From NCBI GenBank assembly GCA_028287305.1, contig JAQBPX010000038.1:434001-498000 (forward strand): a DNA stretch of 64,000 bases. The letters run 5' to 3'. The DNA comes from Gemmatimonadota bacterium. GTDB lineage: Bacteria; Gemmatimonadota; Gemmatimonadetes; Gemmatimonadales; Gemmatimonadaceae. The notes beneath the pieces were generated by a model. That model made no database searches. It saw only the letters and a list, made by a program, of their open reading frames with translations, and had not been told where the DNA came from. The position numbers and the translations under genes are program-made. The stretch's first letter is position 1; every line of letters starts with the position of its first letter. This document shows positions 23,532-58,033 of this stretch, piece by piece.

Positions 23532-24542
23532 ATGACCCTGCTGACCGTCGACCCGACCAATCCGGACGACGCCGCGCTCGGCCGCGCCACCGAAGTGCTG
23601 CGCCACGGCGGGCTGGTCGCCTTTCCCACCGAGACGGTCTACGGGCTCGGCGCGCACGCACTGGATACCGCGGCGGTCGAGCGGATCTACGAGGCCAAGG
23701 GCCGCCCGGCGTGGAACCCGCTGATCGTCCATGTGGCGAATGCCGGAGCCGCCCGCGCCCTGACCGCAAGCTGGCCACGCGAGGCCGAACTGCTGGCCGT
23801 CCACTTCTGGCCCGGGCCGCTCACGCTGGTGCTGCCACGCGACCCCGCCGTACCGGACATCGTGACCGCGGGCCTCGACAGCGTGGGAGTGCGCGTTCCC
23901 TCGCATCCCGTGGCGCTCGCGCTGCTCCGCGCCTGCGGCCTGCCCCTCGCCGCACCCAGCGCGAACCGCTCGAATGAGCTGTCGCCGACCACTGCCCAGC
24001 ACGTGGTGAAGTCACTGGGCAGCGCGGTGGAGCTCGTGCTCGACGGCGGCGCCACCTCGGTGGGCATCGAGTCCACAGTGCTCGACCTGCGAGACCCGGC
24101 GCACCCCGTGGTGCTGCGGCCGGGCGCGGTGAGCGCAGCGGACATCGCGGAGCTGCTGGGCGTGCCGGTGCTGCGTGCCGGGGGAGCGGAGGGTGACGTC
24201 GCGCGCCCGTCGCCGGGAATGACGGAGCGACACTACTCGCCGCGCGCCGCCCTGCGGCTGGTCGATGACGATGGCATCGCGACGCTCGTCAGGCGGGATG
24301 CGGGAGTCCGGAACGAGGCGCTGCTGGTGATGCAGTCCACCATCTCGCAGGGACTGATGGGCGCCTTCGGCCGGGTGGAGACCATGCCCGACTCACCGGA
24401 GGGCTACGCGCGGGTGCTCTATGCCAGGCTGCACGCCCTGGACGACGCGGGGGTCACCGACATCTACGTGCAGCAGCTCCCGGATGGTGCCGCCTGGGAC
24501 GGCGTGCGCGACCGGCTGGCGCGCGCCACGCGGCACGACTGA
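23532..24542 (+). CDS. tsaC: L-threonylcarbamoyladenylate synthase, Sua5 type
   Basis: 336 residues from the ATG at 23532. The YrdC domain (about 1-200) contains GGLVAFPTETVYGLGAHA, the KGRPAWNPLIVHV loop, HFWPGPLTLVL and SANRSNELSPTTA, and ends with GIESTVLDL and LRPGAVS. The extra ~125-residue C-terminal domain marks the longer Sua5 form. The enzyme makes threonylcarbamoyl-AMP from Thr, bicarbonate and ATP for the t6A37 modification of ANN-decoding tRNAs. It stands alone and is divergent from pnuC. Confidence 0.95.
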   Translation: MTLLTVDPTNPDDAALGRATEVLRHGGLVAFPTETVYGLGAHALDTAAVERIYEAKGRPAWNPLIVHVANAGAARALTASWPREAELLAVHFWPGPLTLVLPRDPAVPDIVTAGLDSVGVRVPSHPVALALLRACGLPLAAPSANRSNELSPTTAQHVVKSLGSAVELVLDGGATSVGIESTVLDLRDPAHPVVLRPGAVSAADIAELLGVPVLRAGGAEGDVARPSPGMTERHYSPRAALRLVDDDGIATLVRRDAGVRNEALLVMQSTISQGLMGAFGRVETMPDSPEGYARVLYARLHALDDAGVTDIYVQQLPDGAAWDGVRDRLARATRHD

Positions 24543-24845: not shown

Positions 24846-24874
24846 AAAAAAAATGACCCGGGCAACTGCCCGGG
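24846..24874 (-). terminator. Terminator-like hairpin inside the csp copy 1 leader
   Basis: On the minus strand CCCGGGCA and TGCCCGGG pair around a two-base loop (in practice a 6-bp CCCGGG stem with a larger loop), followed by TCA and eight U. It lies downstream of the predicted -10 box (24914-24919) and 40 bases before the csp start codon, so it is within the leader transcript rather than past a gene end. It may also stop read-through from the kinase gene at 25171. Confidence 0.8.
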
Positions 24875-24913
24875 CCTCCGGTGCGGGCGCGCCGCTGGGC
24901 GGCCGCCGCACAA

Positions 24914-24950: not shown

Positions 24951-25138
24951 ACTACGCACGCGAATGGCCGCTGAACGGCAACGGCAGATGGCCGCCGTAC
25001 GACAAGGACAACCGATCTTTTGAAACAGCACACCAGTCGGGCTCGAGCTCGACGGGTGTGCAGTGACAAAAGGAAGTTGCAGTTCTCTGCCGTTGCAGTT
25101 TCTGCAGTCGCAGTGCAGCGGCCATCCGCGTGCGTAGT
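24951..25138. repeat. 188-bp palindromic repeat element, copy 1
   Basis: 23-bp terminal inverted repeats (24951-24973 and 25116-25138) match with one mismatch; both begin ACTACGCACG outermost. An inner pair CAACGGCAGA / TCTGCCGTTG extends the stem, and the centre can fold as CTTTTG...CACACC...GTCGGG/CTCGAC...GGTGTG...CAAAAG. A homologous copy of 186 bp is at 32181-32366. No coding potential is seen. It lies between the kinase 3' end and the csp promoter. Confidence 0.88.
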
Positions 25139-25170
25139 GCCGCCAAGGGTGCCGTTACGCCGAGTGACCC

Positions 25171-26094
25171 CTACGTGTGGAGCGCGATGGAGCCGGACAC
25201 AGCCCTCGGCAGCGTGAGCGTGAACACCGAACCGTGTCCCATCTCGCTCTTCACGGTGAGGTCGCCGCCCATGTGGCGCGCCAGCGAGCGGCTCACGGCC
25301 AGCCCCATGCCGGCGCCCTCGTAGGGGCGGGTGAGGCCGTCCTCTACCTGGATGAACGGCTCGAAGATCTCGTCGAGCTTGCCCGCCGGGATCCCCCGGC
25401 CGTCGTCGCGCACGAACACCTGCACGCGCTCGCCCTCCATCTCCGCGCCCAGCGTGATGCGCCCGCCACTCGCGGTGAATCGCGCGGCGTTCTCCAGCAC
25501 GTTGATGATGATCTGCTGCAGCCGCTGGCGGTCACAGTGCACGTGCACTTCATCGGGGCAGCCGAGGAACTCGTACCGCTGCGCATTCAGCTGGAATCGC
25601 GGCGCGAGTGTGGCATGCACGGTGGCGAGTGTCTCGCGAAGCGGTACGTCGCGTACGTCGAAGGGGAGCTGGTTCGCCTCACAGCGTGCGAAGTCGAGCA
25701 CGCCGTTCACGAGCGCCAGCAGGTGCTGCTGGCCGCGCTTGATGCGCTCGACAGCCTCGCCCTGTTCCTTGGTGAGCGGCCCGCAGAGGCCCATGGAGAG
25801 CAGTTCCGCGTAGCCGGCGATGGCGTTGAGCGGCGTGCGCAGCTCATGGCTCATGGTGGCGAGGAAGGCGGACTTCACGTGCCGCGGGTCTGCTCCCTGC
25901 TCGAGCCGCAGGTCAGCGCGGGCCGCGAGCACCTCGTCCAACTCCGCGCGAGCGCGCGCCGCCTCTTCCATCGCGGTGCGCGCCACTTCCCACGCCCAGT
26001 CGTCCGCGGGCAGACCTGCCGCCCCGGACGACGTGGTGTCCTGGTCGACCGCCGCGTGCACGGGCTGCTGCATGTCCCGACCGCGACGGGTCAT
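25171..26094 (-). CDS. Soluble histidine kinase (HisKA-HATPase) with short N-terminus
   Basis: 307 residues and no transmembrane helix or recognisable sensor domain. A short coiled coil (about 35-70) leads into the H-box MSHELRTPLNAI with phospho-acceptor His83, followed by an ATPase domain with N box NVLENAARF, G1 DDGRGIP, F box FEPFIQVE and G2 GAGMGLAVS. No response regulator is adjacent. Its catalytic core is closely related to those at 34166, 43933 and 47068. The last codons, ALHT-stop, come from a 20-bp sequence (25166-25185) that is also found at the end of the gene at 32375. A Met at residue 8 is an alternative start. Confidence 0.9.
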   Translation of the reverse strand: MTRRGRDMQQPVHAAVDQDTTSSGAAGLPADDWAWEVARTAMEEAARARAELDEVLAARADLRLEQGADPRHVKSAFLATMSHELRTPLNAIAGYAELLSMGLCGPLTKEQGEAVERIKRGQQHLLALVNGVLDFARCEANQLPFDVRDVPLRETLATVHATLAPRFQLNAQRYEFLGCPDEVHVHCDRQRLQQIIINVLENAARFTASGGRITLGAEMEGERVQVFVRDDGRGIPAGKLDEIFEPFIQVEDGLTRPYEGAGMGLAVSRSLARHMGGDLTVKSEMGHGSVFTLTLPRAVSGSIALHT

Positions 26095-26565: not shown

Positions 26566-26673
26566 GGGGAGATCTCCTGTAGTTGGTACGTATTGATACC
26601 CTCTCAAGGGCAAGCAATGGGCCGTAATAATGGTTTCACATCCATGGAGCGGCGCCGGTTATATTGTCCGCCA

Positions 26674-26758
26674 TGACCGGGGTGCCCGCCACGCTACTGT
26701 GCGCGGGCTGAGAGAGTCCCGTAGAACCTGATCCGGCTAATACCGGCGTAGGGAGTCA
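26674..26758 (+). ncRNA. TPP riboswitch (THI element)
   Basis: The conserved core is complete: CCGGGGTGCCC, then GGGCTGAGAGAGT, ACCTGATC, a CCGG-CTAATA-CCGG stem and CGTAGGGAG. P2 forms from GCCCGC/GCGGGC and P1 from TGAC/GTCA. A -10 box TATATT (26660-26665) puts the transcript start right at the aptamer. The Shine-Dalgarno AGGGAG (26750-26755) is part of the aptamer 3' end, 5 bases before the ATG at 26761, so ligand binding should block ribosome entry directly without a separate expression platform. Confidence 0.95.
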
Positions 26759-26760
26759 CC

Positions 26761-28959
26761 ATGACGATCATCACCGCGTTGCTCGCGGCGCTGCTCGCCG
26801 TCAGCGGACAGGTCCGCGACGCGAGCACGCGAGCTCCCCTGCCCCACGTCACCGTCGAGGGCGCAACTGGCGCCCGCACCGAGACGGACTCGAGCGGCCA
26901 CTTCATCATCGACGTCGCCCCCGGCTCGCCGCTGCGCTTCACGCGCCCCGGCTTCCTGGCGCAGGTCATTCCAGCCGCCAGCGCGGTGCTGGTGGAGCTC
27001 GTGCCGTCCGCACAGCGACTGGAGGGCGTGACGGTCACCGCCGTGCGCGCCCAGGGCGCAGCGCCCATCGCCTCGACGACCATCGGCGCCAGCGCGCTCG
27101 ACCATGCGCCCTTCGCGGTGGAGCTGCCGCTGCTGCTGCAGGGCACGACGTCGCTCACGTCGTACGCCGAGGCAGGTGGCTACAACGGCTACAGCTACGT
27201 GCGACTGCGCGGCATCGACCAGACGCGCATCAACCTCACCCTCGACGGCGTGCCGCTCAACGACCCCGAGGACGAGGTCTTCTACTTCGCCGACTTCCCG
27301 GACTTCGCGAACAGCCTCCACTCGGTGCAGGTGCAGCGCGGTGTCGGCACGAGTTCCATTGGCACCGCCTCGTATGGCGGCTCGATCAACTTCGAGACGC
27401 TGCCCCTCGCCAGCACGCCGCGTGGGGGCGAGCTGCAGGCAGGCGGCGGCGCATTCGGCACGCAGCGCGCCTCGCTCGAATACGCGTCGGGGCTGCTCTC
27501 GAATGGATTCGCGTACGCCGCCAGGGTTTCCACCCACCACGCGCCCGGCTATCGCCGCCACTCGGCCAACGACGGCAACGGCGTGTTCCTGGACGCGGGC
27601 TGGTTCGGCGACCGGGACGTGCTCAAGCTCACGGTGGTCGGCGGGCTCTCGCGCAACTCGCTCGCCTACTCCGCCGTTCCCGAGAGTGAACTGCGCACCG
27701 ATCCGCGGGCCAACCCGCTGGGCCCCGATGAAAAGGATCGCTTCGACGAGGAGCTCGCATCGCTCAGCTACACGCGGCTCCTCGGCGCGCGCAGCTCGCT
27801 GTCGCTCACGGCCTACGGCATTCGCGCCGTGGGCAACTACGACGTGGCCATCTCGCCCGACCTCTGGAACTTCAACCTGGACTTCGGCTGGGGCGGCGCG
27901 ATCGCCGCGTGGAGCTGGCGCAGCGGCAACGCGCAGCTCGACGCAGGCGCCACGGTGAGCCGCTACCATCGCGACCATTACCTGTTCATCCGCCCCGACC
28001 TCGACACGCGCACCTACTCGAATCGCGGACTCAAGGGCGACGCGAGCGGATTCCTCAAGGCCGGCTACACCGTCGGCAGCGTCACGCTGTTCGGCGACCT
28101 GCAGCTGCGCGACTCGCGCTTCCGCTACCAGCCGGATGCGGCGGCCGGGATTCCGCCGCGCAGCATCGCGTGGCAGTTCCTCAACCCGAAGGCCGGCCTC
28201 ACCTGGCGCGCGACGCGGTCGGTGGAGCTCTACGCGTCCTACGGCGTGAACGGCCGCGAACCCACGCGGAGCGACATGTTCGCCGGCTTCGACAACGTGG
28301 ACACCTCGAACGTGGACTTCGTGGGCTCGCTCGATCGCGTGAAGCCGGAGACGGCGCGCGACCTCGAGGCCGGCGCGCGCCTGCGCGGCGCGCACTGGAC
28401 GCTGGCCGCGAATGGATACGCCATGCGCTTCCGCAACGAGATCCTCCCGATCGGCCAGCTGAGCTACATCGGCACGCCGCTGCGGAAGAACGTGGCGGCC
28501 AGCGCGCGCACGGGCATCGAGCTCGACGGGGAACTGTCGGCAGGGGCGCGACTGCTGCTGTCGGCCAATGCCACGCTCAGCCGGAACAGGATCCGCGAGT
28601 ACGAGGACGACGCGAGTGGCACCACATTTCATGAGGTGACCCCGCTCCTGACGCCCTCCGCGCAGTTCAACCACCAGGCGCGGTACGCGGCCGGCCATGG
28701 CGTGATGCTGGCGCTCGGCGGGCGCTATTCGTCCACCTCGCAGCTCGCGAACACCGGCGATGCGCGCTTCGTGCTCCCGTCCGCTTACACCCTCACCGCC
28801 GCGCTCTCGATGGTACGCGGGCGCTATGGACTCGACGTCTCCGCCGACAACCTGACGAACGGCGCGAAATACGCATCCGGTTACACCGACGGCGCCCAGT
28901 CCTACTATTACGTGCAGGCGCCGAGGAACGTGATGGCGGTGGTGCGGCGGACGTTCTGA
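26761..28959 (+). CDS. TonB-dependent receptor under TPP control, predicted thiamine-compound importer
   Basis: 732 residues. A short signal (TALLAALLAVSG) is followed by a carboxypeptidase-regulatory-like domain (QVRDASTRAPLPHVTVEGATG ... DSSGHFIID, about 17-75). The plug domain (about 95-225) contains LLLQGTTSLTSYAEAGGYNGYSYVRLRGIDQTRINLTLDGVPLNDPED and VQVQRGVGTSSIGTASYGGSINFET. The rest is a 22-strand-type barrel ending in Phe. The riboswitch directly upstream implies repression when TPP is abundant, so the cargo is probably thiamine or a phosphate ester. No inner-membrane partner is adjacent. Confidence 0.92.
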   Translation: MTIITALLAALLAVSGQVRDASTRAPLPHVTVEGATGARTETDSSGHFIIDVAPGSPLRFTRPGFLAQVIPAASAVLVELVPSAQRLEGVTVTAVRAQGAAPIASTTIGASALDHAPFAVELPLLLQGTTSLTSYAEAGGYNGYSYVRLRGIDQTRINLTLDGVPLNDPEDEVFYFADFPDFANSLHSVQVQRGVGTSSIGTASYGGSINFETLPLASTPRGGELQAGGGAFGTQRASLEYASGLLSNGFAYAARVSTHHAPGYRRHSANDGNGVFLDAGWFGDRDVLKLTVVGGLSRNSLAYSAVPESELRTDPRANPLGPDEKDRFDEELASLSYTRLLGARSSLSLTAYGIRAVGNYDVAISPDLWNFNLDFGWGGAIAAWSWRSGNAQLDAGATVSRYHRDHYLFIRPDLDTRTYSNRGLKGDASGFLKAGYTVGSVTLFGDLQLRDSRFRYQPDAAAGIPPRSIAWQFLNPKAGLTWRATRSVELYASYGVNGREPTRSDMFAGFDNVDTSNVDFVGSLDRVKPETARDLEAGARLRGAHWTLAANGYAMRFRNEILPIGQLSYIGTPLRKNVAASARTGIELDGELSAGARLLLSANATLSRNRIREYEDDASGTTFHEVTPLLTPSAQFNHQARYAAGHGVMLALGGRYSSTSQLANTGDARFVLPSAYTLTAALSMVRGRYGLDVSADNLTNGAKYASGYTDGAQSYYYVQAPRNVMAVVRRTF

Positions 28960-31203: not shown

Positions 31204-32175
31204 GTGCGGGTGAACGCCACCGCCCTTCGCGCCGCGCTGCTGCTCGCCGCGTGCGCCCCGATTGCCGCCGCGCAGGATACCGTCGCTACTCCGGTGCCCG
31301 CGCTGGCTCCCGCACCGAAGCCGGCAACGAAGCCGGCGACGCCGGCGCCCGTGTGGCCGGTCGCAGGCCCGGCGCCGCTCCCTGGCTCGCTCTTTCCCGC
31401 GAAGCGCGTCGTCGCGTTCTACGGAAACCCGCTCTCGAAGAAGATGGGCGCACTCGGCGAGCACCCGGTGGACGAGATGCTGCGCCGACTGGACGTGGAG
31501 GTCGAGAAGTGGCGCAAGGCCGATCCCGAGACGCCCGTGCAGCCCGCGCTCCACCTGATCGCGGTCGTGGCGCAGGCCGATCCCGGCCGCGACGGCAAGT
31601 ACCGCCTGCGCGCCGACTCGGCGCTGGTCGAGAAGGTCCACGGCTGGGCGAGGCAGCATGACGCGCTGCTCTTTCTCGACGTGCAGGTGGGTGGCTCCAC
31701 GATGCAGGAAGAACTGCCTCGGCTCATGAAGTTCCTCGAGCGCCCCGACGTGCACCTCGGCGTGGATCCCGAGTTCTCCATGCACCATGCTCGTGAGGGG
31801 AAGAAGCCGGGCACCGTGATCGGCCAGATGGACGCGAAGACCATCAACTGGGTCAGTCGCCAGCTCGCCACGCTGGTGGACGCGAAGCAGCTGCCGCCCA
31901 AGGTGCTGGTGGTGCACCGCTTCACGAAGACCATGCTGTTGCGGCCGAGGGACATCGCGCTCGACCCGCGCGTCCAGGTCGTGGTCGACATGGATGGATG
32001 GGGGGCGCCCTGGCTCAAGCGGCACAGCTACAAGGCGTACGTCTACCAGGAGCCCGTGCAGTTCGCGGGGTTCAAGCTCTTCTTCCACAACGACACGAAG
32101 AAGGGCAACGCGATGATGACGCCCGCCGAGGTGCTGGCCCTCAAGCCGCGGCCGGTCTACATCCAGTATCAGTGA
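31204..32175 (+). CDS. Secreted protein of unknown function
   Basis: 323 residues, starting with GTG at 31204 (a GTG two codons later is equally possible). A signal peptide (ALRAALLLAACAPIAAAQ) is followed by a Pro/Ala/Lys-rich linker (KPATKPATPAP) and an ordered domain with VVAFYGNPLSKKMGALG, LHLIAVVAQADPGRDG, DALLFLDVQVG, VHLGVDPEFSMH, VLVVHRFTKTMLL and VVVDMDGWG. The alternating hydrophobic strands and helices, with acidic residues at strand ends, look like a TIM-barrel-type hydrolase fold, but I recognise no family. It is probably co-transcribed with the lytic transglycosylase. Confidence 0.75.
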   Translation: MRVNATALRAALLLAACAPIAAAQDTVATPVPALAPAPKPATKPATPAPVWPVAGPAPLPGSLFPAKRVVAFYGNPLSKKMGALGEHPVDEMLRRLDVEVEKWRKADPETPVQPALHLIAVVAQADPGRDGKYRLRADSALVEKVHGWARQHDALLFLDVQVGGSTMQEELPRLMKFLERPDVHLGVDPEFSMHHAREGKKPGTVIGQMDAKTINWVSRQLATLVDAKQLPPKVLVVHRFTKTMLLRPRDIALDPRVQVVVDMDGWGAPWLKRHSYKAYVYQEPVQFAGFKLFFHNDTKKGNAMMTPAEVLALKPRPVYIQYQ

Positions 32176-32180
32176 CTGGG

Positions 32181-32366
32181 ACTACGCACGCTGATTGCCG
32201 CTGAACTGCAACGGCAGATGGCCGCGGCACCGCAACTACAACCGATCCTTGGAAACAGCTCAGGTCGGGTTCGTACTCGACTGGCGAGACGTCACAAAAG
32301 GAAGTTGTAGTCATCTGCCGTTGCAGTTTCTGCAGTTGCAGTGCAGCGGCCATCCCCGTGCGTAGT
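32181..32366. repeat. 186-bp palindromic repeat element, copy 2
   Basis: Homologue of the element at 24951-25138, in the same orientation: it starts ACTACGCACG, has the inner CAACGGCAGATGG block, shares ACAAAAGGAAGTTG and CTGCCGTTGCAGTTTCTGCAG, and ends CAGCGGCCATCC-CGTGCGTAGT. The central hairpin GTCGGG/CTCGAC is conserved while its loop and flanking bases differ. It starts 6 bases after the stop at 32175 and ends 8 bases before the convergent stop at 32375. Confidence 0.88.
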
Positions 32367-32374
32367 GCCGACCC

Positions 32375-33664
32375 CTACGTGTGGAGCGCACCGGACAGCG
32401 GCTCCAGCGCCCTGGTCTCGTCCACGTGGATGATCGCGTCGAACTGGTTCGCCAGCTCCGCATGGAAGTAGTGCGACTGGCGCTCCGTCTCGGGGCGGTA
32501 GATCACCCCGATTGCGCGCTCCAGCAGTGAGCGCTGGAACAGCGCACGCGCGGGTGCGCCCATGTCGCGCAATGGCAGGAAGAAGTCGCCACCCGCATCG
32601 TGCATCACGCGCTCCCAGCTGTCGGGTAGCGACGGCCGCACCGCCTTGATCTCGGCCGGCGCATCCCAGTCGCTCGCCGCCGTCACCGACCCGGTGTGCG
32701 TAGTGAAGCCGATGTTCACGCACTCGCCCGGCCAGCGCTCGCGCACGAGCTGTCCCACGTTCAGCTCCCCGCGGCGCCCCATGGACGTTGCGCGCGCATC
32801 GCCGAGATGCGAGTTGTGCGCCCACACCACCATCTTCGGCGACTGCCCCGTCCACTCGAGGTGCTGCTCCACCGCGAGAAGCGTGTCGGCCATGTGCGAG
32901 TCGCGCAGGTTCCACGAGTTGGCGCGCCCCTCGAACATCGAGCGATAGTAACGCTCCGCATTCGCGACGAGCCTCGCGTTCTGCTCGGCCGAGAAGACGT
33001 CGTCCGCCCCGCGCGCCTCGCCGGCCGCATACTCGGGGGCGCGCTGCTGCAGCTCCATCAGCTGCCGCACCGCGTCATCCTCACATGTGCGGCTTGCACC
33101 CGACGTCGCGGCGTAGCCGTACGCCTGGCTGTCCTCCTGAAAGTGCTCGAAGCATTCGTATCGGTGGCGAGCTCGCCGCGCCGCGTCGGGGTCCACCCCT
33201 TCCAGGTACTGGATCACGCACGCCATCGAGCGATACATGGAGTAGAGGTCCATGCCCAGGAATCCGGTGCGCAATGCTGGCTCGCGCGCATCGTTCGTGG
33301 ACCGCAGCCACTCCAGGAAGTCGCGCGTCACGCCGTTGCGCCACATCCATGTGGGGAATCGCTCGAAGCCGGAGAGCGCATCGCCGGCGCTCGAGCTGCG
33401 CCCGAGGCCGCGCACGTACCGGTCGGCCCGGTACGCATCCGGCCAGTCGGCCTCCGCCACCACCACCGAGAACTGGCGCTCGGTCACCAGTCGTCGCGTG
33501 AGCTCTGCGCGCAGCTGGTAGAACTCGTGCGTGCCGTGCGACGCCTCGCCGATCAGCACGACGCGGGCGTCACCGATGAACGACAGCAGTCGCGCATGAT
33601 CGGGCGCGCCGCCACTGAGCGCGACGGCATGCTCGCGCGCGGCGGCCACCGCGTCGCGGCTCAA
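32375..33664 (-). CDS. Erythromycin esterase family protein
   Basis: 429 residues; TTG start at 33664 overlapping the stop of the upstream small gene (TTGA). The EreA-type core is visible: VVLIGEASHGTHEFYQLRAELTRRL, VVVAEADWPDAYRADRYVRG, FPTWMWRN, FLGMDLYSMYRSM, VVWAHNSHLGDARATSMG and YRPETERQSHYFHAELANQFDAIIHVDET. The family holds conserved His and Glu residues in GEASHG and AEADWP. Most chromosomal members have unknown substrates, so macrolide resistance should not be assumed. The C-terminus ends ALHT, encoded by the 20-bp sequence shared with the gene at 25171. Confidence 0.9.
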   Translation of the reverse strand: MSRDAVAAAREHAVALSGGAPDHARLLSFIGDARVVLIGEASHGTHEFYQLRAELTRRLVTERQFSVVVAEADWPDAYRADRYVRGLGRSSSAGDALSGFERFPTWMWRNGVTRDFLEWLRSTNDAREPALRTGFLGMDLYSMYRSMACVIQYLEGVDPDAARRARHRYECFEHFQEDSQAYGYAATSGASRTCEDDAVRQLMELQQRAPEYAAGEARGADDVFSAEQNARLVANAERYYRSMFEGRANSWNLRDSHMADTLLAVEQHLEWTGQSPKMVVWAHNSHLGDARATSMGRRGELNVGQLVRERWPGECVNIGFTTHTGSVTAASDWDAPAEIKAVRPSLPDSWERVMHDAGGDFFLPLRDMGAPARALFQRSLLERAIGVIYRPETERQSHYFHAELANQFDAIIHVDETRALEPLSGALHT

Positions 33665-40226: not shown

Positions 40227-40613
40227 GAGCGCCTCCTTGAGGAGAAGATCACCTTGATCGGGCTTTCCCTTGATCTACCGTGGCAGGGGCGCCCGCGCCA
40301 GAGCGGGGCGTAGGGCCTGGGTCAACAGCGTGGCGTGAGGCCTGGGTCAACAGCGTGGCGTGAGGCTTGGGTCAACAGCGAGGCTTGGGGCGTGTGGCTG
40401 GGGCGTGGGAGAATGGGCTTGAGTAAGAACGGCGTGAGGCAGAGGGCTGGAACTACCAGGCGTGGGAGCGTATTCCCAGGCCCTGTTGTTCCAGCCCTCT
40501 GCCCCACGCCGTCGCTACCCTGGCCCGAGGACTCCAGCCCCAGCCACACGCCTCACGCCATCAGTTACTGCAAGCCCTACGGCAGATCCCTCGCTGCGCG
40601 CAGGACGTCTTCG
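40227..40613. repeat. Non-coding gap with 25-bp tandem repeats and nested inverted repeats
   Basis: No gene is seen. At about 40313-40388 a 25-bp unit (GGCCTGGGTCAACAGCGTGG plus CGTGA) is repeated three times with few changes. Then a long dyad: GGCGTG-GGCAGAGGGCTGGAAC (about 40431-40454) faces GTTCCAGCCCTCTGCC-CACGCC (about 40488-40511) across ~33 bases, and an outer pair GCGTGTGGCTGGGG / CCCCAGCCACACGC (about 40391-40404 and 40541-40554) encloses it. The leftmost 85 bases hold the FecR promoter/leader. The dyad may terminate transcription from the left; it is downstream of the M14 peptidase gene on the minus strand. Confidence 0.7.
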
Positions 40614-43600
40614 TCACTTCTTCACCTCGCCCCCAGCCGCCGCCGCCTTCGGAACCGCCTTGCCCGCCGAGAGGTCATTCCAGTTGAGGATCGCGTTGAA
40701 GCCGAGCATGTAGGTGCCCTGCGTCTGCCACCGCCAGAACGGGCGGATCGCGAACATCACCACGTGGCCCTGGCCGATGCTCTCGTCCACCAGTTGCGCG
40801 CGTCCGGAGAGGGCGGCGCCGCCCTCGAGCGTGCCCGAGAGCAGCATGTCTTCCGGCTTCATGGGGAACTGCAGCACCACGCGCGGCTTCGAGGTGGAAT
40901 CCACCACGAGTCCGGTGACGGTCGTCGCTCCACCCTGCGCGCCAAAGCCACCGCCGCCGCCACCGCCGCCGCCACCGCCGCCATTTCCGCCCGTGGTGCG
41001 CACGCGCGCCATCGAGTCGGTGTACGTGAGCGGCATCGTGCCGTAGGCCGTGCCGGTCTTGTCGGGATCCCACGACGAGAGCTTGAGCTGCGTGGCCATG
41101 GGCGTGGTGTTCTGCCCCTGCACGCGCGCGCCGGCTCCACCGCCGCCGCCGCCACCGCCGCCAGCGCCACGACCAGCCGTGGTGTCGCGCGGAGCGGCAG
41201 CCACCGGCGCCGCCGCACCCGCTCCCGCGTTGAGCACCGGCGCCTGGCTGAAGTACACCGGCAGCTCATCGTGCTGGTATCCGTACACCAGCGGGCTGCC
41301 GCGATCCGCCACCATGCCGCGCAGGATGGTGCCGCGCGCGAACAGCGTCGGCGGGATTTCCACCTTCACGCCCGGCGTGAGGCCGAGCGACGCAAGCGTG
41401 CCCGACGTGCCGCCCTCGGTGATGAGCGTGCCGCCCTGCTGCACGAACTCATACAGCGCCTTGAAGCCTTCCACGCCCACGCCACCGCGGATGTCATCGG
41501 TGCTGTCGGGATAGCCCAGTGCCTGGAACTCCGCGGTCCGCTTGAAGGGAATCGCCTTGTCGCCCGCCGCCGCGCCGAAGCCGCCGCCGAGTCCCGTGCC
41601 GCCGTGCGGCCAGACGATGACGTCGTACTTCGCGCGCAGGTTCCCTTCCTTCAGCTTCGGCTCGCCGAAGTAGCTGTAGGGCACGCCGTAGTGATCGAAC
41701 GCGGCGCGCACCCATCCCTCGTCCTGCGTGCGCGTCCAGCTGTGCGCGTAGCCGATGCGCGGCACGTCGAGGTCATGCGACTTGACGCTCGGCACCGCGC
41801 CCACCGCCACGGCCGAGAGGCCGAGCTCGGAGATGGCGGCGTCGAGCTTCGCGCGATCCGACTGCGGGATGATGAACGAGCCCGCGGCGAAGTGCGTGCC
41901 GCCCGCGTCGAACGCGTCCTCGGCCGCCATCATCTTCGTGGAGGCGAAGCGGAATCGCAGCGAGACGAGGTTGTTGTCCTGTGCGTGCGCCACGATCACC
42001 ACCGGGCCCGTGCCGGTCACGCCGCCATTCGCCTTCACGTCGGCGGTGACCGGCGTCATGGGCTGTGACAGGATCGACTTGTCGAGCACCGTCGCGATGC
42101 TGAGGTTGCGCATCATCGGGAACGTCCACCCCGTGTCGTCGTACGGACTCGGGTTGGTGGGCGAGAAGTTCTGCAGCGAGAAGTAGATGTCGGCGATCGT
42201 GCGGTAGGGCTGGTCGCCGCGCACGATCCAGTCACCGGCCTGCACCTGCACCTTGCCGGCGGTGAACGCCGTCTTCGCCACGTTGAATTCGAGTCCCTGC
42301 CGGCGGAGGTCGTTCACCGCCTCGGCGGCGTTGCCCCTGGAGTGCTGGCCCGCGGGAATGACCCACGCGTAGATCGGACCGGTGCTGCCCTTCGCCACGG
42401 CGCGCTTGCTCTTGAGCCAGAAGTTCTCGAGCCACATCTCGCGGTTCTTCGCCACGTGGCTGAGCGCGAAGAGCATCGCGGATTCCTGGATGTTCGTATT
42501 CGCGCGCGGGCCCCACTTGATGAAGGTGAGGGGCGGATTCGGGCGGAACCACTCCTTGCTGGTGGTGGTCGCGCCGGGGCGCACCTCATAGTTGTCCGGG
42601 CCGTAGCTCTGCACTTCGTAGAAGCGGCCGACCGCGTTGTGGTTGTGCGCGATGAAGAACATGTAGTTCGGCACCCACCCGTCGTAGAACCCATAGGTCC
42701 ACACGCCGGGGACGCCGCGCTTGGTCATCTCCATCACGTCGTTCTTCGCGAGCGTCCACCACTCGTCCACCACGATCGGGTCGAGCTGGTCGTTGTACGG
42801 CCCGGTGCCGGTGGAGGCGTAGAGGTACGTCTGGGCTTCGTGCAGGTCATGCATGATCGTCGGCGTCCAGTCCATCCACGCCGCGTTCATGTTCTTCGTG
42901 AGCGCGAGGTACTCGCCCATGCCGTCGCGGTTGTTGTCATGCTGCACGTACTTGCCCCAGTACATCAGCGGCAGCTGGCCGGCCGCGCCGCCGGCGCCCG
43001 CGCCGCGCGCCGTGGCGGCCGCGCTCGTGTCGCGCGCCGCGTACTTCTTGTTCCAGTAGTAGGTGTCCACCATCTTCTCGCGCCCGTCCACCTCGATCAC
43101 CGGCGTGATGAAGGTGATCACGTTGTTGCGGATGTTCTGGATGAATGGCGTCTCTTCCACCGTGAGGCGGTACGCCAGCTCCATCAGCATCTCGGGCCCA
43201 CCGCGCTCGGTGGAATGCATGCCGCTCGTGATCCAGTAGATGGGCTTCGCGGTCTTGAGGAGCTTCTGCGCCTCAGCCTGCGTCACCTTGCGCGGATCGG
43301 AGAGCTTGTTCAGCATCCCCTTGTACTTGTCGAGCGTGCGGATGGTGGCCTCGTCGGCCACGGCCAGCACGATCATCTCGCGCCCTTCCTCGGTCTTGCC
43401 GATGGACCAGTACTTCGCGCGCGGCGTCGCCTTCGCGACCGCCGCCATGTAGCGATGGATGTCCTTCGCGTATGTCAGCTCGCCGGTCTGCCCAACCACG
43501 CGGCCCAGGAACTTGAGCGGGGTGGGAACCGTGGACGAGGCCGGCAAGTGGTCCACCAGCTCGGTGGAGATGCGCGGGTCGGTGAGGAGCGCCCGGATCT

Positions 43601-52217: not shown

Positions 52218-52301
52218 GAGTACTGAGTGCTGAGTACTGAGTACTGAGTACTTAGTACTGAGTACTGAGTACTGAGTACTGAGTACTGAGTACTGAGTAC
52301 T
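52218..52301. repeat. 12-unit heptad tandem array (GAGTACT)12
   Basis: Twelve consecutive 7-bp units; two are variants (GAGTGCT, TAGTACT). AGTACT inside each unit is self-complementary, so the array can form many alternative hairpins and should be prone to slippage. The same unit in reverse orientation occurs at 22359-22395. Confidence 0.95.
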
Positions 52302-52323
52302 GAGCACCCAAAGCCCTCGTTCC

Positions 52324-56525: not shown

Positions 56526-56783
56526 ATGGTCCCATTCGTCCACCCGGCGCTCGCGATCCCGCCCATCCTCCTGCCGCTCATCCCGGTCGCGATGGTGCTG
56601 GTGGTGGTGTTCTTCCCCGTGTGGCTCGCCGCGCTCGCGATCATCGGGATCCTCTGGGGGATCGCGCTGGCGCTCGACTGGATGCTCGGCCTGGTGAAGG
56701 TGCAGCGAAGGCTCGCACCGGGGCCGCGCTACTGGTTCACCTGGGTGTGGACCATCGGGGGGTTGCGAAAGAAAAAGGGGTGA
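56526..56783 (+). CDS. Small membrane protein of unknown function
   Basis: 85 residues with two hydrophobic helices (about 5-30 and 32-52) followed by a basic amphipathic end (VKVQRRLAPGPRYWFTWVWTIGGLRKKKG). A TATATT box at 56516-56521 lies only 4 bases before the ATG, so the mRNA may be leaderless. A short palindrome TCGGTACCGA (56504-56513) precedes it. No family is recognised. Confidence 0.65.
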   Translation: MVPFVHPALAIPPILLPLIPVAMVLVVVFFPVWLAALAIIGILWGIALALDWMLGLVKVQRRLAPGPRYWFTWVWTIGGLRKKKG

Positions 56784-56853
56784 GGAGTGAGGGGCTGAGG
56801 TGTGAGGAACGACGCGACTGCAGTTCCTCGTATCCTCAGCCCCTCAGCTCCTC
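56782..56853. repeat. Long heptad hairpin between convergent genes
   Basis: Left arm GAGGAG-T-GAGGGGCTGAGG, right arm CCTCAGCCCCTC-AG-CTCCTC, with an inner pair GAGGAAC / GTTCCTC around a GCGACTGCA loop region. The 12-base arms are identical to those at 53282-53328. It overlaps the kinase stop and should act as a bidirectional terminator. Confidence 0.8.
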
Positions 56854-58033
56854 ATTCCCGTTTTCTCGTCACCACCAGCGAATCCCTCGCCGCCCACTCG
56901 TAGGCGAGCACCGAGTCCGCCACGCGCACCGGCGAGCCGCCGCCCTTCGCGGGCACCTTCATCAACGCACCGGCTGCAAGCCAGGAAATCCACTGGCTGT
57001 CCGGCGAGAAGCGCGGCGCGCTCGGGTCGGCATGCCGCGGCGCGCGCGCCAGGTGCGGCGGCGAGGCGGGATCGGCGTGCGAGCGGTTCCATCCCCAGCT
57101 GGTGGCGGCGGCGGCCACCGACGCTGCCGCCGTGAGCAGCAGCATGGTGCGCCAGCCGGCGGTCGGCGCCGCCTCGGTCCGCGCGACCGGGGTGGAAGGC
57201 CGGCCGCGCAAGGCGTCCGCAAAGTCGCACGCATGCGCGAAGCGATCGTCCGGCACCTTGGCCAGCCCGCGCATCACCGCCATCTCCACGTGCGGCGGCA
57301 CGCCCTTCCGCATGCGCGAGATCGGCGTCGGCTCGTCGAGCATCAGCTTCGCGATCGTCGCCTGCGCCGACGCGCCAGTGTGTGGCGGCGCGCCGGCGAG
57401 CATCTCGTACGTCACCGCCGCCAGCGAGTACGTGTCGGTGCGGCCGTCCACGGCGCGGTCGCCCGCCGCCTGCTCGGGACTCATGTACTCGGGCGTGCCC
57501 AGCGAGAGTCCGGTCTTGGTGATCCGCGCGCCGCCCACCTTCGTCACCGCGAGCGCGATCCCGAAATCCGCCACGAGCGGCTGGCCGTGCTGCATCAGGA
57601 TGTTCTCGGGCTTCAGGTCGCGATGCACCACGCCCTCGCGATGCGCATAGTCGAGCGCGCTGGCGATGGAGGCCGCGATGCGCACCGCCTCGCTCACGGG
57701 CAGCTGCTGCTCGCGATCCATCAGCTGTCGGAGCGTCTCGCCCTCGACGTACGGCATCACGTAGTAGAGCAGCCCTCCCGTCTCGCCCGAGTCGAACAGC
57801 GGGAGCAGGTTGGGGTGCAGCAGGCTCGCCGTCACGCGGATCTCGCTCAGGAACCGCTCGGCCCCGAGCACCGCGCCGAGCTGTTGCTTGAGCACCTTGA
57901 GCGCGACCATGCGCTCGTGCTTCATGTCGCGCGCCAGGTACACCGTCGCCATGGCCCCCGAGCCGATCTGGCGCTCGACGGTATAGCGACCGGCGAGTGC
58001 GACGGTCAGCTGGCCTGTTGTGCTGGTGCTCAC
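56852..58033 (-). CDS. Ser/Thr protein kinase (PknB type) with truncated PD40-like C-terminus
   Basis: 393 residues. Kinase domain about 15-285: GSGAMATVYLARD (P-loop), VALKVLK (ATP Lys), HRDLKPENIL (catalytic loop), VADFGIAL (DFG) and GTPEYMSPEQ. One transmembrane helix (WRTMLLLTAAASVAAAATSWGW). Outside it, only about 60 residues remain, containing SPDSQWISWL and VPAKGGGSPVRVAD; these look like a first PD40/TolB blade. Related kinases in this group often carry a long propeller here, so this copy appears shortened. The stop lies in a heptad hairpin. Confidence 0.9.
   Translation of the reverse strand: MSTSTTGQLTVALAGRYTVERQIGSGAMATVYLARDMKHERMVALKVLKQQLGAVLGAERFLSEIRVTASLLHPNLLPLFDSGETGGLLYYVMPYVEGETLRQLMDREQQLPVSEAVRIAASIASALDYAHREGVVHRDLKPENILMQHGQPLVADFGIALAVTKVGGARITKTGLSLGTPEYMSPEQAAGDRAVDGRTDTYSLAAVTYEMLAGAPPHTGASAQATIAKLMLDEPTPISRMRKGVPPHVEMAVMRGLAKVPDDRFAHACDFADALRGRPSTPVARTEAAPTAGWRTMLLLTAAASVAAAATSWGWNRSHADPASPPHLARAPRHADPSAPRFSPDSQWISWLAAGALMKVPAKGGGSPVRVADSVLAYEWAARDSLVVTRKRE

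Follow-up and report, generated by a model that had tools for sequence, protein, structure and literature searches.

The stretch of DNA analysed here (the window; 64,000 nucleotides of contig JAQBPX010000038.1 of a Gemmatimonadota bacterium) carries two related palindromes, each lying at the 3' end of a minus-strand gene, one encoding a histidine kinase and the other a protein of the erythromycin-esterase family. Both palindromes are built of nested layers, called from the outside inwards the outer shell (O1), the middle shell (A) and the core hairpin (K). The features are given below in window positions.

24951-24997, plus strand: copy 1, left arm of shell A, ACTACGCACGCGAATGGCCGCTGAACGGCAACGGCAGATGGCCGCC (inverted-repeat scan, module match)
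25017-25072, no strand: copy 1, core hairpin K, CTTTTGAAACAGCACACC...GGTGTGCAGTGACAAAAG, an inner inverted repeat (covariance model R1, G000:C4:459017-459072, 73.6 bits)
25092-25138, minus strand: copy 1, right arm of shell A (inverted-repeat scan, module match)
25139-25186, minus strand: copy 1, right arm of O1, complete, its outermost 20 bp being what had earlier been described as a flank; left O1 arm absent
25171-26094, minus strand: histidine kinase gene (Pfam HisKA and HATPase_c), with its last codons, ..ALHT-TAG, formed by the O1 end
32181-32226, plus strand: copy 2, left arm of shell A, starting 5 bp past the TGA of a convergent gene (31204-32175)
32247-32300, no strand: copy 2, core K, degenerate (covariance model R1, G000:C4:466247-466300, E 5.9e-4)
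32321-32366, minus strand: copy 2, right arm of shell A (inverted-repeat scan, module match)
32370-32390, minus strand: copy 2, right end only of O1, with ~25 bp of the inner O1 arm absent between A and the O1 end
32375-33664, minus strand: erythromycin-esterase-family gene (Pfam Erythro_esteras), ending in ..EPLSGALHT-TAG, truncated by O1 and without the ~15-aa tail of its relatives

The original prediction described copy 1 as a palindrome of ~187 bp with 23-bp inverted ends containing one mismatch and a foldable core, and both the ends (24951-24973 and 25116-25138) and the core were confirmed. The arms extend to 38 nt with 87% complementarity, an inner 28-nt inverted pair lies around 25017-25072, and the strand folded far better than shuffled sequences (z = -7.2, 0/200 shuffles). 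The predicted 20-bp sequence GACCCCTACGTGTGGAGCGC was found exactly at 25166-25185 and at 32370-32389. The 188 bp are, however, not the whole element but the inner part of a full unit of ~270-310 bp, and both window copies are damaged, with the left O1 arm gone. No Rfam covariance model matched the element between positions 24500 and 33000, the sole match there being a TPP riboswitch (RF00059, 71 bits) at 26668-26771 on the plus strand, directly upstream of an outer-membrane-receptor-like ORF (26761-28959). A terminator-like hairpin ending in T8, GGCCCGGGCAGTTGCCCGGGTCATTTTTTTT on the minus strand, lies at 24848-24882 between copy 1 and a cold-shock gene.

Searches with three query copies returned 74, 70 and 26 matches in the bacterium's own genome (74 at E<=0.001 with the window region as query), and the window palindrome is therefore not a chance structure. 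From these searches and fetched stretches we catalogued 50 loci in the genome, to be read as at least 50, the catalogue probably being incomplete. The DNA of this bacterium thus holds dozens of long palindromes, built of exchangeable nested layers and lying just past gene ends. When complete, a copy forms a single long, imperfect hairpin of ~270-310 bp with concentric shells, the second arm being the reverse complement of the first, and complete hairpins are mostly 180-310 bp. The order from outside to inside is O1, O2, O3 or O4, then A or B, then K, with the following modules.

O1, outermost layer: end sequence GCGCTCCACACGTAGGGGTC..., arm read as GCGCTCCACACGTAGGGGTCTCTTGGCGTAACGGCGTCCTTGG
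O2, outer shell enclosing the same inner modules as O1: CGCCGGGGCCGGTTCCTCGGA
O3, outer shell enclosing the same inner modules as O1: GCATCCCGACCAGC..GATTGAAACGC
O4, outer shell enclosing the same inner modules as O1
A, middle layer: ACTACGCACGC.GATGGCCGCTGAACTGCAACGGCAGATGGCCGC
B, middle layer, alternative to A: CGCGGACGAACTGATGCGGA..CGCGGATACTGCAAC
K, innermost layer: TTTTGAAACAGCACACCCATCGGGCTCGAGCTCGATGGGTGTGCTGTTTCAAAA

The module table of the 50 loci contained the combinations O1-A-K, O1-B-K, O3-A(-K), O2-B, O4-K and bare A, and arms were incomplete in some copies. None of these copies combined an A arm with a B arm; shells are exchanged whole, in both arms alike. A 14-bp block of O1, GCGCTCCACACGTA, with a weak outward extension GCTTCGTY, was nearly invariant across 38 O1 ends, and 18 copies carried O1 ends in inverted orientation at both ends. 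These are conserved terminal inverted repeats of the kind that define a MITE, and the near-invariance of the block makes the O1 ends resemble recognised termini. The GTAG of the O1 end is paired, within the stem.

Copies are placed just past stop codons. Gene context was assigned by calling genes from codon usage, with the window as training sequence, and 24 of the 50 loci were convergent, 23 tandem and 3 divergent, compared to 13, 33 and 13, respectively, for neighbouring genes of the window (Fisher test of loci against window genes; convergent excess p = 0.005, divergent deficit p = 0.03). Edges facing a stop codon lay at a median of 9 bp past it (n = 71), and edges facing a start at a median of 91 bp, none at <35 bp (n = 29). 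Tandem copies were closer to the stop side in 19/23 cases (p 0.003). This location, past gene 3' ends in convergent and tandem contexts, is that of REP elements.

Both window ORFs were confirmed with Pfam domains in agreement, and they share, as had been noticed, ALHT followed by TAG as their minus-strand end. The O1 extension GCTTCGTY also spans the GSI/SG codons that precede ALHT in these two genes. Had the shared end been present at these genes in relatives lacking the palindrome, it would not have come from the element; among esterase relatives with a complete end, however, none had ALHT, and nearly all ran 13-19 residues beyond EPL, closing in a PETYPS-like motif (..PETYPSGL) that the window gene has lost. 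Relatives of the kinase had variable ends after an LPR motif, with ALHT in none. Judged from these relatives, the C-terminus of the window genes comes from the element, whose O1 end supplies the stop codon of both and replaces the conserved tail of the esterase; insertion is shown by such comparison at the protein level only, for one gene. The original prediction had left open whether the mobile unit is larger than its visible inverted repeats and brings its own stop codon, or targets the 20-bp sequence. The former reading holds, since ~20 other copies terminate in the same end, as a rule at each side and in inverted orientation. That the 20 bp are an insertion target or a conserved coding end outside the element would fit their position outside the inverted repeats at both window loci, but is very improbable given those other copies and the genes of relatives, which lack the 20-bp end. 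Targeting of the sequence was refuted by the same two observations, the 20 bp being the outer end of O1.

The idea that the element supplies stop codons as a general rule was not supported. Of the ~22 loci with O1, 3 use its TAG as stop codon, namely those at the two window genes and at C16:80409, and in a few other genes the end falls inside shell A, O3 or O2/B. Most copies are found a few bases beyond a native stop that stays intact, and stop supply is therefore a by-product. The genome search that had been suggested thus did reveal many copies near gene 3' ends, but rarely with O1 providing the stop. The repeat can rewrite gene ends; its connection with stop codons, though real, is incidental, and what stands out is the nested, shell-swapping build.

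A covariance test for conserved RNA structure, also suggested earlier, gave a divided answer. Among 11 complete O1-B-K copies, 19/91 pairs had changed on both sides, a value as high being reached in 0/500 shuffles. Selection on RNA pairing should favour G.U pairs. When tandem copies were read on the sense strand of the upstream gene, however, the ratio of G.U to A.C was 71:63 (p 0.55), and because G.U was not in excess there is no RNA signature. We infer that the arms were corrected or copied as DNA, rather than kept by selection on RNA pairing. Arm identity within a copy was only slightly higher than between copies (0.782 vs 0.765); copying between arms is therefore weak or took place long ago, and it could be mimicked by symmetric subfamilies.

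A query of O1 and A gave no match in relatives. In the GTDB 220 species collection neither O1 nor A had an exact pattern match, and viral contigs had none to A, though the own genome may have been left out of the collections scanned. The core behaved differently: a covariance model of K matched in a genome of another family (G056), and the pattern GCACACCN{8,38}GGTGTGCNGTT was present in 13/298 genomes of the phylum, with 0 for the reversed control; several single matches lay inside genes and are probably due to chance. In two further genomes (G013 and G193) K occurs almost by itself and, where the direction fits, lies 33-45 bp beyond a stop codon, and in G056 it is enclosed by CACCACGGAACCACGGAAAACACGG-type shells. 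By these matches, the same core occurs in other Gemmatimonadales genera within unrelated shells. The longest G056 copy (L238, C110:5070-5490) is a 410-bp hairpin with the order P1[K1[P2[K2]P2']K1']P1', in which the loop of one shell-and-core unit holds another of the same kind; other G056 loci have the P1-K1 unit without the insert, and dozens of loci there are related to L238. This suggests that nests grow at the hairpin tip, the best evidence being this nested copy, read in G056 and not directly in the window species. More tentatively, there could be a class of hairpin-DNA elements across Gemmatimonadales whose insertion sites are the single-stranded tips of hairpins already present, with some enzyme or template switching in replication as the driver. 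Whole shell-and-core units would in this way stack concentrically at gene ends, while each lineage replaced the shells around a core common to all. At gene ends the sampled relatives also had long palindromes, again of different sequence, and the two genomes of highest G+C gave many weak intragenic matches as well.

We consider the element, with a probability of about 0.7, to be a multi-copy, non-autonomous palindromic repeat of this lineage, and a new, nested, unusually large and modular variant of the palindromic intergenic repeats (REP/MITE-like). The GTAG- and CGTC-tagged REP, BIME and REPIN sequences are extragenic palindromes that mostly follow genes, in gaps between ORFs that converge or run in one direction; flanking ORFs often take their TAG stop from a GTAG REP end, REP dimers inside other palindromes are reported for three species, and many REP families are species-specific (Di Nocera et al., 2013, PMC3733652). 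Supply of TAG by O1 is therefore a by-product already reported for GTAG REPs, and three REP families nested in palindromes are a published precedent for the nesting seen here. REP and REPIN units, however, are 20-40 bp with an unpaired tag and go with RAYT, whereas here the hairpins reach ~300 bp with several interchangeable shells, GTAG is paired in the stem, G.U pairing is not enriched and a Y1/RAYT gene is absent. ERIC, Correia/NEMIS, RUP, YPAL and RPE are non-autonomous intergenic repeats of 100-200 bp that form a single long stem-loop and are at times fused in frame to genes; most such MITE-like repeats have one architecture, and several have target-site duplications (reviewed in PMC2229807). 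The present element resembles them in being a non-autonomous, intergenic long stem-loop with in-frame gene fusion, and differs in its concentric modular build and lack of duplication.

No means of mobilisation was apparent. The Y1/RAYT transposase family (PF01797) had no match in G000 (the own genome), G056, G013 or G193, while control genomes were positive, which rules out mobilisation by a resident RAYT/Y1 gene in the own genome. The 18 two-ended copies had no target-site duplication, the match between a copy's own flanks being no better than that of cross-pairs. A permissive motif scan gave noise only. Insertion into a terminator hairpin belonging to the flanking genes was rejected, with complementary flanks in only 1/26 copies. 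At one locus (L171, G000 C24:338952-340187), O1-A-K pieces lie on both sides of a 272-aa gene of unassigned function; judged by eye, its product is not recognisable as a transposase, and the gene was rejected as an autonomous copy.

These observations bear on a descent from a deleted transposon, with the O1 ends as terminal inverted repeats of a DDE-transposase element. Such a classical MITE would account for the nearly invariant terminal 14 bp, inverted at both ends of 18 copies, but we regard it as improbable: target-site duplications are missing, no O1-bounded copy carrying a transposase was seen among the loci, and one transposase alone would not account for outer ends (O1, O2, O3 and O4) that are interchangeable around one and the same set of inner modules. 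Somewhat less improbable, though still unlikely, is that the palindromes are primarily devices of the host at gene 3' ends, bidirectional terminators or mRNA-protecting hairpins that evolved in place and were kept similar by gene conversion. Their sites just past stops, the convergent excess with near absence from divergent gaps, and the isolated K-like hairpins 33-45 bp past stops in other Gemmatimonadaceae would all be expected of such devices, and position and symmetry are those of bidirectional intrinsic terminators between convergent genes. An intrinsic terminator, however, has a G+C-rich stem followed by a T-run, which was absent, by inspection, from the outer flanks of 18 copies, and copy 1 has the separate T8 hairpin beyond it. 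The element is also far longer than such terminators, with high-copy related sequence that diverges between species: the sequence is limited to one species, and relatives have other palindromes. Nor does a host device agree with the lack of G.U excess on the sense strand or the loss of the conserved esterase tail.

For the nested, non-autonomous repeat that we favour, we propose that copies would spread as hairpin-forming DNA, with gene 3' ends and the exposed loops of older palindromes as insertion sites, whereby nesting would grow from the tip. The arms would be kept alike by arm-to-arm copying at the DNA level, not by selection on RNA pairing. Settled copies may give one or both transcripts a hairpin in the 3'-UTR, with putative REP-like effects such as protection of mRNA 3' ends and attenuation of convergent transcription. 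The family would then preserve in legible form the history by which long palindromes of bacteria grow, seemingly through insertion of whole units at the tip. It also provides defined loci at which to look for the mobilising enzyme and to test whether giant hairpins serve as two-way 3'-end elements.

Core K centres such as CGGGTTCGAACCCG, for example at L105, L108 and L171, resemble a tRNA T arm; a tRNA origin of K, raised by the T-arm-like centre GGTTCGAACC, was rejected, as ARAGORN predicts no tRNA there. Four more long palindromes, different in sequence, lie in intergenic gaps of the window, compared to 0 in a shuffled window. At 40303-40643 there is an intergenic palindrome of 341 bp, unrelated in sequence, whose arms contain GGTCAACAGCGTGGCGTGAGGC repeats, two long palindromes unrelated to O1, A or B lie between convergent genes at 2630-2910 and 56761-56876, and a self-complementary tandem TGAGTACTGAGTAC repeat occupies an intergenic gap at 52224-52310.
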